Shown piece after piece: positions 1,700 through 9,091 of a stretch of DNA of 64,000 nt. A program made the position numbers and the translations under genes. The first letter of the stretch is position 1; each line of letters begins with the position of its first letter. The DNA is from Pseudomonadota bacterium (GTDB lineage Bacteria; Desulfobacterota; Desulfovibrionia; Desulfovibrionales; Desulfomicrobiaceae): contig JAHIQM010000002.1 in assembly GCA_018902545.1 (NCBI GenBank), forward strand, positions 124,001 to 188,000. The letters are read 5' to 3'. Under the pieces are notes generated by a model that searched no databases, was not told the DNA's origin, and worked only from the letters and a program-made list of their open reading frames with translations.

Positions 1700-2149
1700 A
1701 TGAAGCTTGCTGAATACCTGGACAAGGATTTGATCATCTCCGACCTCTCGGCCAGGACCAAACTCGAGGTCCTGGCCGAACTCGTTTCGCCGCTGTCAGC
1801 CAAATTCCCGGACCTCGACCCCAAACGCGTGGCCCAGGTCCTCATGGACCGTGAAATGCTCGGGACCACGGGCATCGGGGACGGCATCGCCATACCCCAT
1901 GGCAAGCTCGACAGCATCGATCAGGTCCTGGTCATCGTCGGCCGCAGCCGCGAAGGGGTGGATTTCGCCAGTCTCGACCACAAGCCGGCCAGCATCTTCT
2001 TTACGGTGCTGGCCCCTTCAAGCGTGGTCGGGCTGCACTTAAAACTCCTGGCCACGGTCTCCCGCCTGCTCAAAGACAGCTCCTTCAGGCAGGCCTTCGC
2101 CAACTCCCCCGACCAGGAAGGTCTGTGGCAGCTGCTGCAGACCGTCTAG
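1700..2149 (+). CDS. ptsN: PtsN-like PTS EIIA domain protein (nitrogen-PTS type)
   Basis: A 149-residue EIIA of the fructose/nitrogen-regulatory family. It accepts phosphate from an HPr-type protein on a histidine and acts as a regulator rather than a sugar transporter. The phosphorylation motif GIAIPHGKL puts the active His at about residue 67, and the length matches PtsN. It sits between hpf and rapZ, the common ptsN position. Translation is probably coupled: the start is 3 nt after the hpf stop. No membrane segments are seen, so it should be cytosolic. Confidence 0.9.
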   Translation: MKLAEYLDKDLIISDLSARTKLEVLAELVSPLSAKFPDLDPKRVAQVLMDREMLGTTGIGDGIAIPHGKLDSIDQVLVIVGRSREGVDFASLDHKPASIFFTVLAPSSVVGLHLKLLATVSRLLKDSSFRQAFANSPDQEGLWQLLQTV

Positions 2150-2172
2150 ACCGGATACGCCGGAGAATCCCC

Positions 2173-3060
2173 ATGCAGCCTCTCAGCGAACAGAAAAACG
2201 TGGTCATTGTGTCCGGCATGTCCGGATCTGGCAAAAGCACGGCGCTCAAAGTCTTCGAGGACATGGGCTTTTTCTGCGTAGACGGGCTTCCGGCGCGCAT
2301 GGCTCCGGCCCTCATCGAACTGTTTTTCAATTCCTCCGCCAAGGACTACCCCGGCCTGGCCATGGGCATGGATCTGCGCCAGCCCGATTTCGTGGGCCAG
2401 TGGAAGGAAGTGCTCCTTGATATCCAGAAGTTTTCCGTGCGGCCGACAATCCTCTTCACGGACTCTTCAAACCAGATTCTGCTACGCAGGTACGCCACCA
2501 CCCGCCGCCCGCATCCGTTGGCCTCAGGCAACCTGGGCCTTGAGGGGGCGCTGGAGCGTGAACGCGAGATCCTCGAACCCATCCGCACCCAGGCGGATCT
2601 GGTCATCGACACGTCGCATTATTCGGTGCACGATCTACGCCGGGTCATCCAGGACAAGTGGGAGAGCCTGTCTTCCCGCAGCCAGGGCATGCGCGTGCAT
2701 CTGATCTCCTTTGGCTTCAAGTACGGGGCTCCGGCCGAGGCAGACATGGTCACGGACCTGCGCTTTCTGCCCAATCCCTATTTCGACGAGTCACTGCGAC
2801 CCATGTCGGGAAAGGACGATGCCATCGCCCGCTTTGTACTGGACAGCAATCCGGGCCGCGAATACCTGCGCAGGCTCTTGGAATTTCTTGACTTCACCCT
2901 GCCGCTGTACGCGGCGGAAGGACGCTACCGCCTGACCATGGCCTTCGGGTGCACGGGCGGCAGACACCGTTCCGTGGCCGTGACCGAGGCCGTTCTGGCC
3001 CATTTGCGCGCCCGGGACTACAACGTTTCTGTTGAACACCGGCATTTCAGTCTTGGATAA
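2173..3060 (+). CDS. rapZ: RNase adapter protein RapZ (YvcJ family P-loop NTPase)
   Basis: A 295-residue nucleotide-binding protein. In E. coli RapZ guides RNase E to the GlmZ sRNA and so controls glucosamine-6-phosphate synthase; in other phyla the exact role is less clear. The Walker A motif GMSGSGKS is at residues 15-22 and the conserved C-terminal motif GCTGGRHRSV is present. An upstream in-frame ATG at 2125 overlaps ptsN and would add 16 unrelated residues. The ATG at 2173, with GGAGA six bases before it, gives the family N terminus and is preferred. It lies in the rpoN-ptsN operon. Confidence 0.93.
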   Translation: MQPLSEQKNVVIVSGMSGSGKSTALKVFEDMGFFCVDGLPARMAPALIELFFNSSAKDYPGLAMGMDLRQPDFVGQWKEVLLDIQKFSVRPTILFTDSSNQILLRRYATTRRPHPLASGNLGLEGALEREREILEPIRTQADLVIDTSHYSVHDLRRVIQDKWESLSSRSQGMRVHLISFGFKYGAPAEADMVTDLRFLPNPYFDESLRPMSGKDDAIARFVLDSNPGREYLRRLLEFLDFTLPLYAAEGRYRLTMAFGCTGGRHRSVAVTEAVLAHLRARDYNVSVEHRHFSLG

Positions 3061-3072
3061 TCTGGAGGAGAA

Positions 3073-3483
3073 ATGGTTGGAGTGATCGTGGTGACCCATG
3101 GCCAGTTCGGCAAATATCTGCTCGAAGCGGCGCAGACGATTCTGGGCCCGCAGGAACAGTGCGCCCATATCGCCGTCGAGGGCTCCGTAGAGATGAGCGC
3201 TCTGCTCGCGGAACTCAAATACACCGTGAAACAGATGGAAACGGGCGACGGCGTGATCATCCTGACCGACATGTTCGGCGGCACCCCGTCCAACATCAGC
3301 CTTTCGCTCCTGCAACCTGGCAAGGTCGATGTGCTGACCGGTGCCAACCTGCCCATGTTGCTCAGGATTCTGGGCATGCGCAGCCAGGAACTGTCCCAAC
3401 TGGCTCAGGAAGCCAAAAACGCGGCCATTCAGGGCATCGTCGTCGCCGGCGAAGTGCTCAGCCGAAAAATCACCGAGACATAA
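3073..3483 (+). CDS. PTS system mannose-family EIIA component
   Basis: A 136-residue EIIA of the mannose/sorbose family, which relays phosphate from HPr to EIIB. The N terminus VIVVTHGQFG carries the phosphorylated His at residue 9, and DMFGGTPSN is the second family signature. A GGAGGA ribosome site precedes the ATG. EIIB begins 2 nt after the stop and a disrupted EIIC follows, but no EIID is present. This fits a regulatory PTS branch rather than a full sugar permease. The link to RpoN/RapZ is from gene order only. Confidence 0.92.
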   Translation: MVGVIVVTHGQFGKYLLEAAQTILGPQEQCAHIAVEGSVEMSALLAELKYTVKQMETGDGVIILTDMFGGTPSNISLSLLQPGKVDVLTGANLPMLLRILGMRSQELSQLAQEAKNAAIQGIVVAGEVLSRKITET

Positions 3484-3485
3484 GC

Positions 3486-3950
3486 GTGCACTGGTTCCGT
3501 ATCGACAACCGCCTCGTCCATGGCCAGATCATCGAGGCCTGGCTGCCGCACATCAGGGCCAAGACCCTGCTGGTCGCCAACGACGACCTGGCTACGGACG
3601 AACTGCGACAGGAGATCATGAGCCTGGCCGTGCCGAGCGACATCTCCTTTTTGTGCTGCACGGTGTCTCAGGCGGCGGCGATGCTGCAGAGCATACGCAA
3701 GGAAGACCCGGGCCAGCATGTGCTGATCCTTTTTTCCGACTGCGTCGACGCCAGGGCCGCGCACATGGCAGGACTTTCCTTTTCCTTGGTCAACATCGGC
3801 AATCTGCATTACGGACCGGGCAAGGAGCAGGTGTGCGAGCACATCGCCCTTGGCGCTGAAGACCGCTCCTGCCTCAAATACTTCCGCGAGCAGGGCGTGG
3901 AGGTCGATTACCGCTGCGTGCCCTCGGCAACGGCCAAGGTCAACCTGTGA
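3486..3950 (+). CDS. PTS system mannose/sorbose-family EIIB component
   Basis: A 154-residue EIIB of the mannose/sorbose family. The start is the GTG at 3486, two bases after the EIIA stop; this gives the family N terminus MHWFRIDNRLVHGQI, with the phosphorylated His at residue 12. The same frame stays open upstream to 3159, but that part only shadows EIIA. EIIB normally passes phosphate to a sugar bound in EIIC/EIID. Because EIIC is out of frame and EIID is absent, this protein may end the relay or serve a regulatory role. Confidence 0.9.
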   Translation: MHWFRIDNRLVHGQIIEAWLPHIRAKTLLVANDDLATDELRQEIMSLAVPSDISFLCCTVSQAAAMLQSIRKEDPGQHVLILFSDCVDARAAHMAGLSFSLVNIGNLHYGPGKEQVCEHIALGAEDRSCLKYFREQGVEVDYRCVPSATAKVNL

Positions 3951-3972: not shown

Positions 3973-4652
3973 ATGCTGAGCGCTCACGACATCATCCTGC
4001 TGGCCGGAGGAAGTTTTTTTTTGCCCTCCTGTCCCTGACCCGCGTCGCCGTAGACCTGGGTTTTGTCCATCGCCCCATCTTTGCCGCCCTGCTCTGGGCG
4101 GGCCTGACCTTCAGCCTTCAGCCGGCCATGAGCGCCGGGATCTTCTTCGAACTGCTCTGGCTTGATCTGTTCCCGGCCGGCACCTACATCCCGCCGCACG
4201 CCCTTCTTTCCCTGACCGCCACCCTCACGCTCCTGTCCTGCCTGCCGGATGCCGACATGCGCGTCACGGCGCTTGTTGTCGTCGCCACCCTGCCCCTGGC
4301 CTATCTGGGAGCGTGGGTCGAGCAACTGCACCGCAAGCGTCAGAATGCTGGCTACAACCAGTTGCTGACCTGGAACCGCAGCGGCGGCATGAACGTCTTT
4401 GCGCCCGACCGGCTCACAGCCAGGGCCCTGGGCGAAATTTTCGCTATCAATTTCGCAGTCCTTTTCCTCTGTCTGATCCCTCTTCTCGCAGGCGTGCGTA
4501 TGTTGCAGCCGCTGCTTGCCGGAGGCATGCAGCCGACCTGGCCCATGCTCTGGATCGGTGCCTGCGCCGGGGCCATCCTTGCCCTGCGCGTACCCAGGGC
4601 CTACGCTCTGGCCGGGGCCGCGTTGGTACTTGGGACCCTCATCACCCTGTGA
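3973..4652 (+). CDS. PTS mannose/sorbose-family EIIC, frame interrupted at a T9 run
   Basis: Membrane component of a mannose-family PTS. The ATG at 3973 opens a frame (MLSAHDIILLAGGSFF) that hits TGA at 4036. A one-base backward shift inside the nine-T run at 4014-4022 joins it to the frame that continues FALLSLTRVAVDLG to the stop at 4652, giving about 226 residues of hydrophobic helices (DMRVTALVVVATLPLAYLGA and others). The second frame has no ATG, GTG or TTG before 4128, so without a shift only an N-truncated 174-residue product could be made. Possible causes are a mutation, a homopolymer read error, or real slippage (-1 ribosomal or transcriptional) at T TTT TTT. The family call is good; its state is uncertain. 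Confidence 0.75.
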
Positions 4653-4742: not shown

Positions 4743-5663
4743 ATGTCCGTTTATGTTTTTGGTCACAAGAATCCCGATTCCGATACCGTTTGCAGCGCCA
4801 TTGCGCTGGCCGATCTGAAGAGCAAGCTCGGCGTAGCCTGCACCGCCACCGCGCAGGGCGAGCTGCCCCCCGAGACCAAGTTCATCCTTGAGAAGTTCGG
4901 TGTTGCCGCTCCCGCCGTGAAGACCGATTTCGCCGGTGAAAAAGTTTTCCTGGTCGATACCTCCGACCTGGCTCAGCTGCCCGAGGACATCAAGCAGGCT
5001 GAAGTGCTCGGCATCGTCGACCACCACAAGCTGGGCGACCTGACCACCTCCACCCCCCTGGAATGCTGGATCTGGCCCGTTGGCTGTACCTCTACGGTCA
5101 TCACCGCCATGTACAAGTTCCATGGCATTGAAATTCCCAAGAACATCGCCGGCATCATGCTGTGCGCCATCCTGAGCGACACCGTCATCTTCAAGTCCCC
5201 GACCTGCACCCCGGCCGACAAGGAAGCCGCTGCCGAACTGGGCAAGATCGTCGGCATCGCCGACCTGGCCGCTCTGGGCATGGAAATGTTCAAGGTCAAG
5301 TCCGCCGTTGAAGGCACCCCGGCCCGCGAGCTGGTTCTGCGCGACTACAAGGACTTCAACATGAACGGCACCAAGGTTGGCATCGGCCAGCTGGAAGTTG
5401 TCGATCTGTCCATCCTCGACGCCGTCAAGGGCGACCTGGCCGCCGACATCGTCGCGCTGAAGGCCGAGAAGGGCAATCACTCCGTGTTCCTGCTGCTGAC
5501 CGACATCATGAAGGAAGGCTCCGAGATCCTCATCGCCTCCGACGACGCCTCCGTTGTCGAGAAGGCCTTCGGCGTCAAGCCCGTAGACGGAAAGGCATGG
5601 CTGCCCAAGGTCATGTCCCGCAAAAAGGACGTTGTGCCCAAGTTCGAAAAGGCTTTCGCCTAA
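4743..5663 (+). CDS. ppaC: Manganese-dependent (family II) inorganic pyrophosphatase
   Basis: A 306-residue cytosolic DHH-family phosphatase that hydrolyses PPi to 2 Pi and so pulls biosynthetic reactions and sulfate activation forward. The metal ligands are visible: GHKNPDSDTVCSA near the N terminus, VDTSD, and the DHH motif VDHHK. The C-terminal DHHA2 domain ends with SRKKDVVPKFEKAF. The length equals the simple form without CBS/DRTGG inserts. The start is the ATG at 4743 behind AGGAGGA; the frame is open to 4695 but that would add unrelated residues. It has its own strong terminator. Family II PPases are usual in Desulfovibrionales. Confidence 0.96.
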   Translation: MSVYVFGHKNPDSDTVCSAIALADLKSKLGVACTATAQGELPPETKFILEKFGVAAPAVKTDFAGEKVFLVDTSDLAQLPEDIKQAEVLGIVDHHKLGDLTTSTPLECWIWPVGCTSTVITAMYKFHGIEIPKNIAGIMLCAILSDTVIFKSPTCTPADKEAAAELGKIVGIADLAALGMEMFKVKSAVEGTPARELVLRDYKDFNMNGTKVGIGQLEVVDLSILDAVKGDLAADIVALKAEKGNHSVFLLLTDIMKEGSEILIASDDASVVEKAFGVKPVDGKAWLPKVMSRKKDVVPKFEKAFA

Positions 5664-5720: not shown

Positions 5721-5766
5721 ATTCTCCGGAAATCTTCTCACCATAAAATATTGTGAAAATCACTGC

Positions 5767-5946
5767 GGGGTGGGGCGGTTGTCCCGGACAGGGGCCGCCG
5801 ACTGTCTGACTGAGTGTGGCATCGTTTGTTGAATCATCGCGTGCCGCCTGAAAAACCGGAGTATGGTCGGCAGGGGCGATGATTCAACTCTACGAGGCCT
5901 GCGAAGGAGTTTCGGCGGCCCCTGTCCGGGACAACCGCCACGCCCC
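5767..5946. repeat. Long hairpin element, copy 1 (inverted orientation)
   Basis: A 180-bp hyphenated inverted repeat in the gap between ppaC and the next gene. The outer arms are 28-bp perfect complements (5774-5801 and 5912-5939); the inner arms GTTGAATCATCGC (5828-5840) and GCGATGATTCAAC (5876-5888) also match perfectly. Between them lie two unpaired conserved strands. Read on the minus strand these are AACTCCTTCGC-N-GGCCTCGTA on one side and AACAAACGATGC followed by CTCAGTCAGACAG on the other. The same internal motifs occur at 8281-8460 and 45870-46042 with different outer stems. The function is unknown; it could be a mobile hairpin element or a structured RNA. Confidence 0.85.
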
Positions 5947-6062
5947 GCTTCCGCACCACCCATTGACGTCCCGCTTCCGCACCACGCTTCCGCAGCACGC
6001 CTTGGCCCCCCGCTTCCGCACCACGCCTTGGCGCCACGCTTCCGCAACCCCTCCAAAACCGC
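5946..6062. repeat. 26-bp minisatellite with 13-bp half-phase
   Basis: The core CGCTTCCGCACCAC (one A/G variant, last copy diverging) recurs at 5946, 5972, 5985, 6011 and 6037, spacings of 26, 13, 26 and 26 bases. It abuts hairpin copy 1 and ends just before the 3' end of the unknown gene at 6079. Together with the hairpin it accounts for the 415-bp gap 5664-6078. Confidence 0.75.
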
Positions 6063-8605: not shown

Positions 8606-9091
8606 GCCGTTTTTGGAGGGCGACGTGTAGCCGACTACATGAGTCCTTCAAAATCGGCGAGCAACGCAGCCCAGAACTCCCTTAAAATTCGGCAAAATCC
8701 CCAGAGACCGTCGAAAATTGATTCTGGCAAGGCGCGAGCCGTTTTTGGAGGGCGATGTGTAGCCGACTACATGAGCCCTTCAAAATCGGCGAGCAACGCA
8801 GTCCAGAACTCCCTTAAAATTCGGCAAAATCCCCAGAGACCGTCGAAAATTGATTCTGGCAAGGCGCGAGCCGTTTTTGGAGGGCGATGTGTAGCCGACT
8901 ACATGAGTCCTCCAAAAACGGGGAGCAACGCAGTCCAGAACTCCCTTAAAATTCGGCAAAATCCCCAGAGACCGTCGAAAATTGATTCTGGCAAGGCGCG
9001 AGCCGTTTTTGGAGGGCGATGTGTAGCCGACTACATGAGTCCTTCAAAATCGGCGAGCAACGCAGTCCAGAATCAATTTGCGGCGGTCTCT
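8606..9091. repeat. 132-bp tandem repeat array, 3.5 copies, with inverted end
   Basis: Unit starts (GCCGTTTTTGGAGGGCGA) fall at 8606, 8738, 8870 and 9002, exactly 132 bp apart; the last copy stops at 9072. Copies differ by only a few bases. Each unit begins with a hairpin, clearest in unit 3: CCGTTTTTGGAGG pairing with CCTCCAAAAACGG around TGTAG-ccga-CTACA. The array ends with 9067-9091, an imperfect reverse complement of the unit segment 8967-8991 (AGAGACCGTCG...GATTCTGG). As 132 is divisible by 3, one frame reads 44-residue repeats, but nothing else supports coding. The array reaches to within 2 bp of the hypD stop codon. Confidence 0.9.

Follow-up and report, generated by a model that had tools for sequence, protein, structure and literature searches.

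The gene for a mannose-type PTS EIIC, the membrane channel of a sugar-uptake system, in a Desulfomicrobium-type genome is divided between two reading frames at a run of nine T (T9), and the comparison of this site over sulfate-reducing bacteria of the order Desulfovibrionales indicates that the division is probably a conserved programmed recoding, most likely by transcriptional slippage that adds one U to the mRNA. Judging from the sequences compared, the break itself is real, being neither an error nor a pseudogene private to this genome, and it looks deliberately maintained, not like the mark of a broken gene. Programmed slippage is already a known kind of event; new are this case and its unusual breadth. 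If this reading is true, recoding is indispensable to the sole EIIC found here and to the corresponding gene of most members of the order, an annotation as a pseudogene or with an internal start codon would be wrong, and the gene would present an unusually widely conserved recoding in a non-mobile bacterial gene.

The divided gene and the identity of its downstream frame

All coordinates refer to the window, the whole stretch of 64,000 nucleotides that was analysed. The initial annotation had described a frame from ATG 3973 that stops at TGA 4036, with the remainder of EIIC in the -1 frame and the two joined at the T run, and the same arrangement was obtained when the DNA was re-read:

3973..4038, + strand: 0-frame leader ORF, ATG 3973, 21 codons, across T9, TGA 4036-4038
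4014..4022, + strand: T9, slippery run at which recoding is proposed; exactly nine T in the same phase, 204/220 loci read
4014..4652, + strand: mannose-type PTS EIIC in the -1 frame, reached only via the proposed recoding

The run at 4014-4022 comprises exactly nine T with G on both sides, and an A/T run of about nine bases, a feature of programmed transcriptional slippage genes, is thus present at the ORF junction. Codons 1-14 of the leader ORF would be the source of the EIIC N-terminus. The EIIC frame (TTT TTT TTT GCC ...) is free of stops from 4014 to TGA 4650-4652, and its earliest ATG, GTG or TTG in the window lies at 4128, the position given originally for the first possible start.

In Pfam, the window protein remained below the gathering score and gave no EII-Sor match, while matches were obtained for relatives (L019, E 1.2e-6; L024, 1.5e-5; L016, 1.2e-5; L027, 2.2e-5; L014, 0.007); among the six proteins, the bit score was 28.5 against a cut-off of 26.3 for L019, 24.5-25.3 for three and 16.2 for one. 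A profile of 30 relatives searched against the PDB had five mannose EIIC (ManY) chains as best matches, at E-values of only 0.04-0.15, with profile position 18 corresponding to chain residue 29, or position 15 to residue 25-26. From this register about eleven residues are expected ahead of FFF, and the 0-frame leader supplies fourteen. An AlphaFold model for which the -1 frame was combined with 39 named relatives reached a pLDDT of 87.5, and in a Foldseek search of this model against the PDB, ranks 1-11 were all man-PTS structures (probability 0.99-1.00, TM 0.46-0.59, E 3.6e-3 to 7.4e-2), so that the model has the ManY fold expected of a mannose-family EIIC. The window EIIC shares with ManY the fold, the register and the adjoining EIIA and EIIB, and differs from it in being shorter, under the Pfam cut-off and split by a frame break.

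Conservation of the break across the order

In a protein search the EIIC frame was present in 39 of 41 genomes, so that its loss in close relatives, which would have spoken against recoding, was not observed; a profile search of 348 genomes from the order detected it in 252. Site DNA was read for 220 loci from 219 genomes (219 of the 252 gene-bearing genomes) in six families, one locus (L141) being unplaced. In 204 of the 220, an exact T9 stands in the same phase; these 204 phase-matched loci include L219, whose upstream sequence puts it in frame, and L197, in which the contig end cuts the upstream part. Among the 219 loci with readable upstream sequence, 203 have T9 and the -1 break, 14 are in frame, one (L320) has T8 and one (L157) T10 in frame. 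The initial annotation had asked whether related species keep a T run with the same frame break, and these 203 loci answer in the affirmative; they also support its proposal that the frames could be joined at T9 by a -1 shift or by slippage during transcription. By family, the break occurs in 20/21 (f1), 15/15 (f2), 7/8 readable (f3), 8/8 (f4), 152/166 (f5) and 1/1 (f6) loci, and within the window's genus T9 was found in 14 of 15 readable genomes. In a set of 80 named loci, whose species overlap with those of the 220 loci, one runs off its contig; among the 79 others, T9 stands in phase in 63, including Nitratidesulfovibrio, Pseudodesulfovibrio, Halodesulfovibrio, Desulfonatronum, Desulfonatronospira and Humidesulfovibrio.

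Outside the order, all 19 phylum relatives examined (56 further matching genomes were left out) have a start in their own frame and no T9, and the run is absent from the eight loci of Smithella, Syntrophaceae and similar bacteria (L102-L104, L106-L110). The base preceding the run in the 204 loci is C in 111, G in 92, A in one and never T, and the base following it is G in 200 and A in four.

Nine of anything repeated so often is hard to ascribe to homopolymer error, prone as such runs are to it: 203 of the 219 readable loci, taken from separate assemblies that include drafts as well as single-contig genomes, give an identical count, and nearly all loci are without an upstream start in the EIIC frame. 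We therefore regard a sequencing or assembly artefact as practically negligible. A T9 that represents the OFF state of a mutable tract, switched by replication slippage to T10, would be in keeping with a homopolymer near the 5' end of a membrane-protein gene and with the three T10 loci (L234 and L318, which are in frame, and L157, in frame at the site). Such phase variation should however make the length differ among species, and the tract was not found to vary in this way among close relatives: 203 of 219 loci have exactly nine T, and T11 or longer was found in none. This explanation is very improbable.

Of the 14 in-frame genes, 13 are without T9. A tree of 100 sequences, in which the outgroup stands apart, contains 15 rows labelled in-frame, namely L157, L320 and 13 in-frame genes (all except L219, which was counted otherwise). 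These rows are scattered and need 12 changes; the long branches make single placements unsure, and the program cannot tell gain from loss. Because the genes outside the order are in frame, the simplest reading is that the break arose early in the order and was repaired several times since. Fourteen relatives thus manage without it, which we count against the preferred explanation; the same fourteen are natural controls for the question why a break that one base could mend stays in place. That a one-base change of length could end the break, and that it persists nevertheless, argues for selection in its favour.

Four loci depart from the common pattern. L219 (G066) is in frame yet has kept T9, and by eye is the locus with A before the run. 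L163 has a run of nine T with a break of like kind, set in a different codon phase. L320 (G113), with T8, has its break in a different phase and may be a pseudogene, an error or the product of a different slip. L157 (G314) has T10 in frame at the site and an EIIC that is broken further downstream.

Selection on the run and the mechanism of recoding

The 0-frame upstream of the run is coding by several sequence measures. At -75..-24, it has a start in 202 of the 204 T9 loci (ATG in 194), whereas the EIIC frame has ATG in one of 204 and any start in 11. Within 13 codons upstream of the run, a stop occurs in 1/202 loci in the 0-frame, in 72/202 in the EIIC frame and in 94/202 in the third frame, and the hydrophobic share is 0.69 in the 0-frame versus 0.46 and 0.50 in the others.

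Downstream, conservation over 202 loci reaches 99-100% at EIIC residues 1-3, 10, 20 and 21, and dN/dS values of 0.10-0.29 in 12 pairs show EIIC under purifying selection, the constraint not being extreme. A frame broken at the DNA level would by itself suit a recent pseudogene or decaying gene; the open EIIC frame, the residues invariant across families, these dN/dS values and an identical lesion throughout the order speak against it so strongly that we give it next to no credence. Both this and the artefact reading are contradicted by the loci compared. A start inside the downstream frame, with the leader as an unrelated upstream ORF, could draw on 37 of 202 loci in which the EIIC frame has an ATG, GTG or TTG no more than 45 nt from the run start. 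The median first ATG is however 243 nt downstream, past all of the conserved residues just named, and the ManY register puts about 11 residues before FFF, which renders an internal start highly unlikely.

Within the run, Phe is encoded by TTT in 612 of 612 cases (204 phase-matched loci with three codons each), against 1495 of 2833 (53%) for Phe codons elsewhere in the same ORFs; in the 51 loci of high GC3 (> 0.8), 180 of 639 of these other Phe codons are TTT. Treating loci and codons as independent gives a chance of about 10^-203 for all-TTT runs; as the loci are related, this value is an indication only. T9 runs are not rare in the window's genome, which has 68 exact ones on both strands, and among the 30 of these 68 that were viewed, five of them in detail, no second T9-split gene was found. 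T9 also stands in frame within other open frames of the same genome (e.g. L332, L349, L353, L347), so that T9 alone proves nothing; what goes beyond chance in this comparison is the conservation of the run length and of the frame change at the same place. One of these runs (L347, G000:C5:139677-139687) lies in frame in the apparent signal peptide of another gene, from which we conclude that T9 runs are tolerated in coding sequence of this genome.

The main alternative to slippage of the polymerase is programmed -1 frameshifting by the ribosome at U UUU UUU and/or U UUU UUG on accurately transcribed mRNA. In the 204 phase-matched loci, the window's included, the 0-frame reads NNT TTT TTT TT(G/A), so that both heptamers (T TTT TTT and T TTT TTG) of the X XXY YYZ type are in phase. 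On A runs in E. coli, frameshifting grows with length, from 10% at 7 to 40% at 9 and 63% at 11 (PMC3711429). Use of the first heptamer alone, however, would leave the third Phe codon free to be TTC, and use of the second alone would leave the first codon free; as a TTC sparing either single heptamer was never seen in the 204 loci, the entire run appears to matter. Nor did 68 of the 204 T9 loci show a signal of stimulatory RNA structure in the flanks of the run, which were covered to 50 nt on the upstream side (windows of 35 and 50 nt) and to 72 nt on the downstream side (windows 12-72 and 15-65 nt): mean z ranged from -0.02 to 0.47, and the downstream means of 0.04 and -0.02 compare with -0.24 to 0.05 in control windows. 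Some known ribosomal -1 frameshift sites do without a stimulatory downstream structure. As a candidate Shine-Dalgarno stimulator, the window's GGAGG ahead of the run was considered and rejected, since by eye it is not conserved in other families.

Lack of TTC, lack of flanking T, the other phase of L163 and lack of structure together suggest that run length is decisive, which points to RNA polymerase. Ribosomal frameshifting on its own is on this evidence unlikely, though a good deal less so than the alternatives above, and both kinds of slippage may be at work. The loci form a rich test set for distinguishing, on sequence grounds alone, slippage of the polymerase from that of the ribosome. 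In E. coli, RNA polymerase slippage begins with runs of seven T, T being favoured over A (PMC6260861), and in bacteria runs of nine A or T are known sites of slippage, which adds up to six bases (PMC5009743).

By the preferred slippage reading, translation would start at ATG 3973, and RNA polymerase would slip on T9 so that one U is added in a fraction of the mRNAs. Ribosomes in the 0-frame on the slipped mRNAs would enter the EIIC frame and yield full-length mannose-type EIIC, and unslipped mRNAs would yield a short dead-end peptide. Present early in the order, the break would have been kept by selection, probably because membrane EIIC is kept low in this way and in constant proportion to EIIA and EIIB. 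As EIIA, EIIB and EIIC stand together in 79 of the 80 named loci, with EIIA and EIIB adjoining EIIC, incomplete joining would yield the membrane subunit in smaller amount than the soluble ones; that the break serves such control of stoichiometry is our guess. We consider it rather improbable that the slipped-mRNA fraction tracks the UTP level or polymerase speed, with the sole EIIC following the nucleotide or growth state; if it did, an order of bacteria would gate a PTS permease by polymerase slippage.

PTS partners, precedents and neighbouring repeats

The genes around the divided EIIC are as follows:

1700..2149, + strand: EIIA type 2, PtsN-like (PF00359, E 9e-30)
2170..3060, + strand: RapZ (PF03668, E 1.6e-46; PF22740, E 1.1e-42)
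3073..3483, + strand: EIIA-man, intact (PF03610, E 2.2e-21)
3486..3950, + strand: EIIB of mannose/sorbose type, intact (PF03830, E 2.6e-43)
4743..5663, + strand: DHH/DHHA2 protein, flanking gene (PF01368, PF02833)

The Pfam matches bear out the earlier description of EIIA and EIIB as intact. We take the gene at 1700..2149 to be ptsN, the genes ahead of it, by their look, to be rpoN and hpf, and the DHH/DHHA2 protein to be probably a manganese-dependent inorganic pyrophosphatase. An intact EIID, which completes the EIIA, EIIB and EIID partners of EIIC, is encoded elsewhere in the genome (L325, G000:C14) in front of genes presumed to encode HPr and EI; with these far from EIIA, EIIB and EIIC, the PTS is divided over two loci. 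The split gene is the sole EIIC found in the genome: the A1 profile search detected one EIIC only, the split one, and no second copy was detected either with this profile or with PF03609, the latter a weak test because it misses the window's own EIIC too. In D. vulgaris Hildenborough, mutant phenotypes of PtsI and the putative EIIA DVU1632 are highly correlated (PMC10102598), which suggests that the PTS matters in this bacterial group; DVU1632 would be the EIIA of this locus.

Several known systems resemble the present one in part. The run of Shigella mxiE is likewise T9. In Shigella mxiE and spa13, a run joins two overlapping ORFs and slippage is needed for the long product (PMC1088944, PMC5009743); these are plasmid virulence genes, whereas here a chromosomal transporter subunit with a leader of ~14 codons is concerned, throughout an order. 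Thermus thermophilus dnaX has a nine-base run (A9) in a chromosomal housekeeping gene (PMC1088944), where slippage truncates and the full product needs none, while here the full product would require it. The magnesium chelatase genes share a conserved, chromosomal, run-based -1 join, theirs having been tested in E. coli (PMC3711429), but have A runs of 7, 9 and 11, two long ORFs and a distribution over scattered genera, in contrast to a T run of fixed length, a short first ORF and a single order. The same study (section 24) put such run-based joins in E. coli down to frameshifting by the ribosome.

A survey of A9 and T9 in 108 genomes reported conservation in seven cases, of which six belong to IS elements (PMC1088944), and Antonov et al. 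described 146 clusters (PMC3711429), in the main text of which a term search gave no Desulfo- or PTS case, the cluster tables being in the supplement; a 14-codon leader may have been too short for their method. Within the literature within reach, which comprised few of the subscription papers, no report of frameshifting in a Desulfovibrionales PTS gene was found, and PMC5723342, PMC11219805 and PMC11678503 concern other subjects in their accessible parts.

Repeats were noted further along the window. In the gap after the DHH gene, a 37-nt inverted repeat (5765-5801 / 5912-5948, 95% complementary, 110 nt apart) encloses a 13-nt inverted repeat and may be a small mobile or palindromic element. 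Adjoining it, short tandem repeats of 13, 26 and 39 bp of the CGCTTCCGCACCA type occupy 5946-6046. At 8606-9072 lies a tandem array of 3.5 copies of a 132-bp unit with 97% matches, through which one long frame reads.
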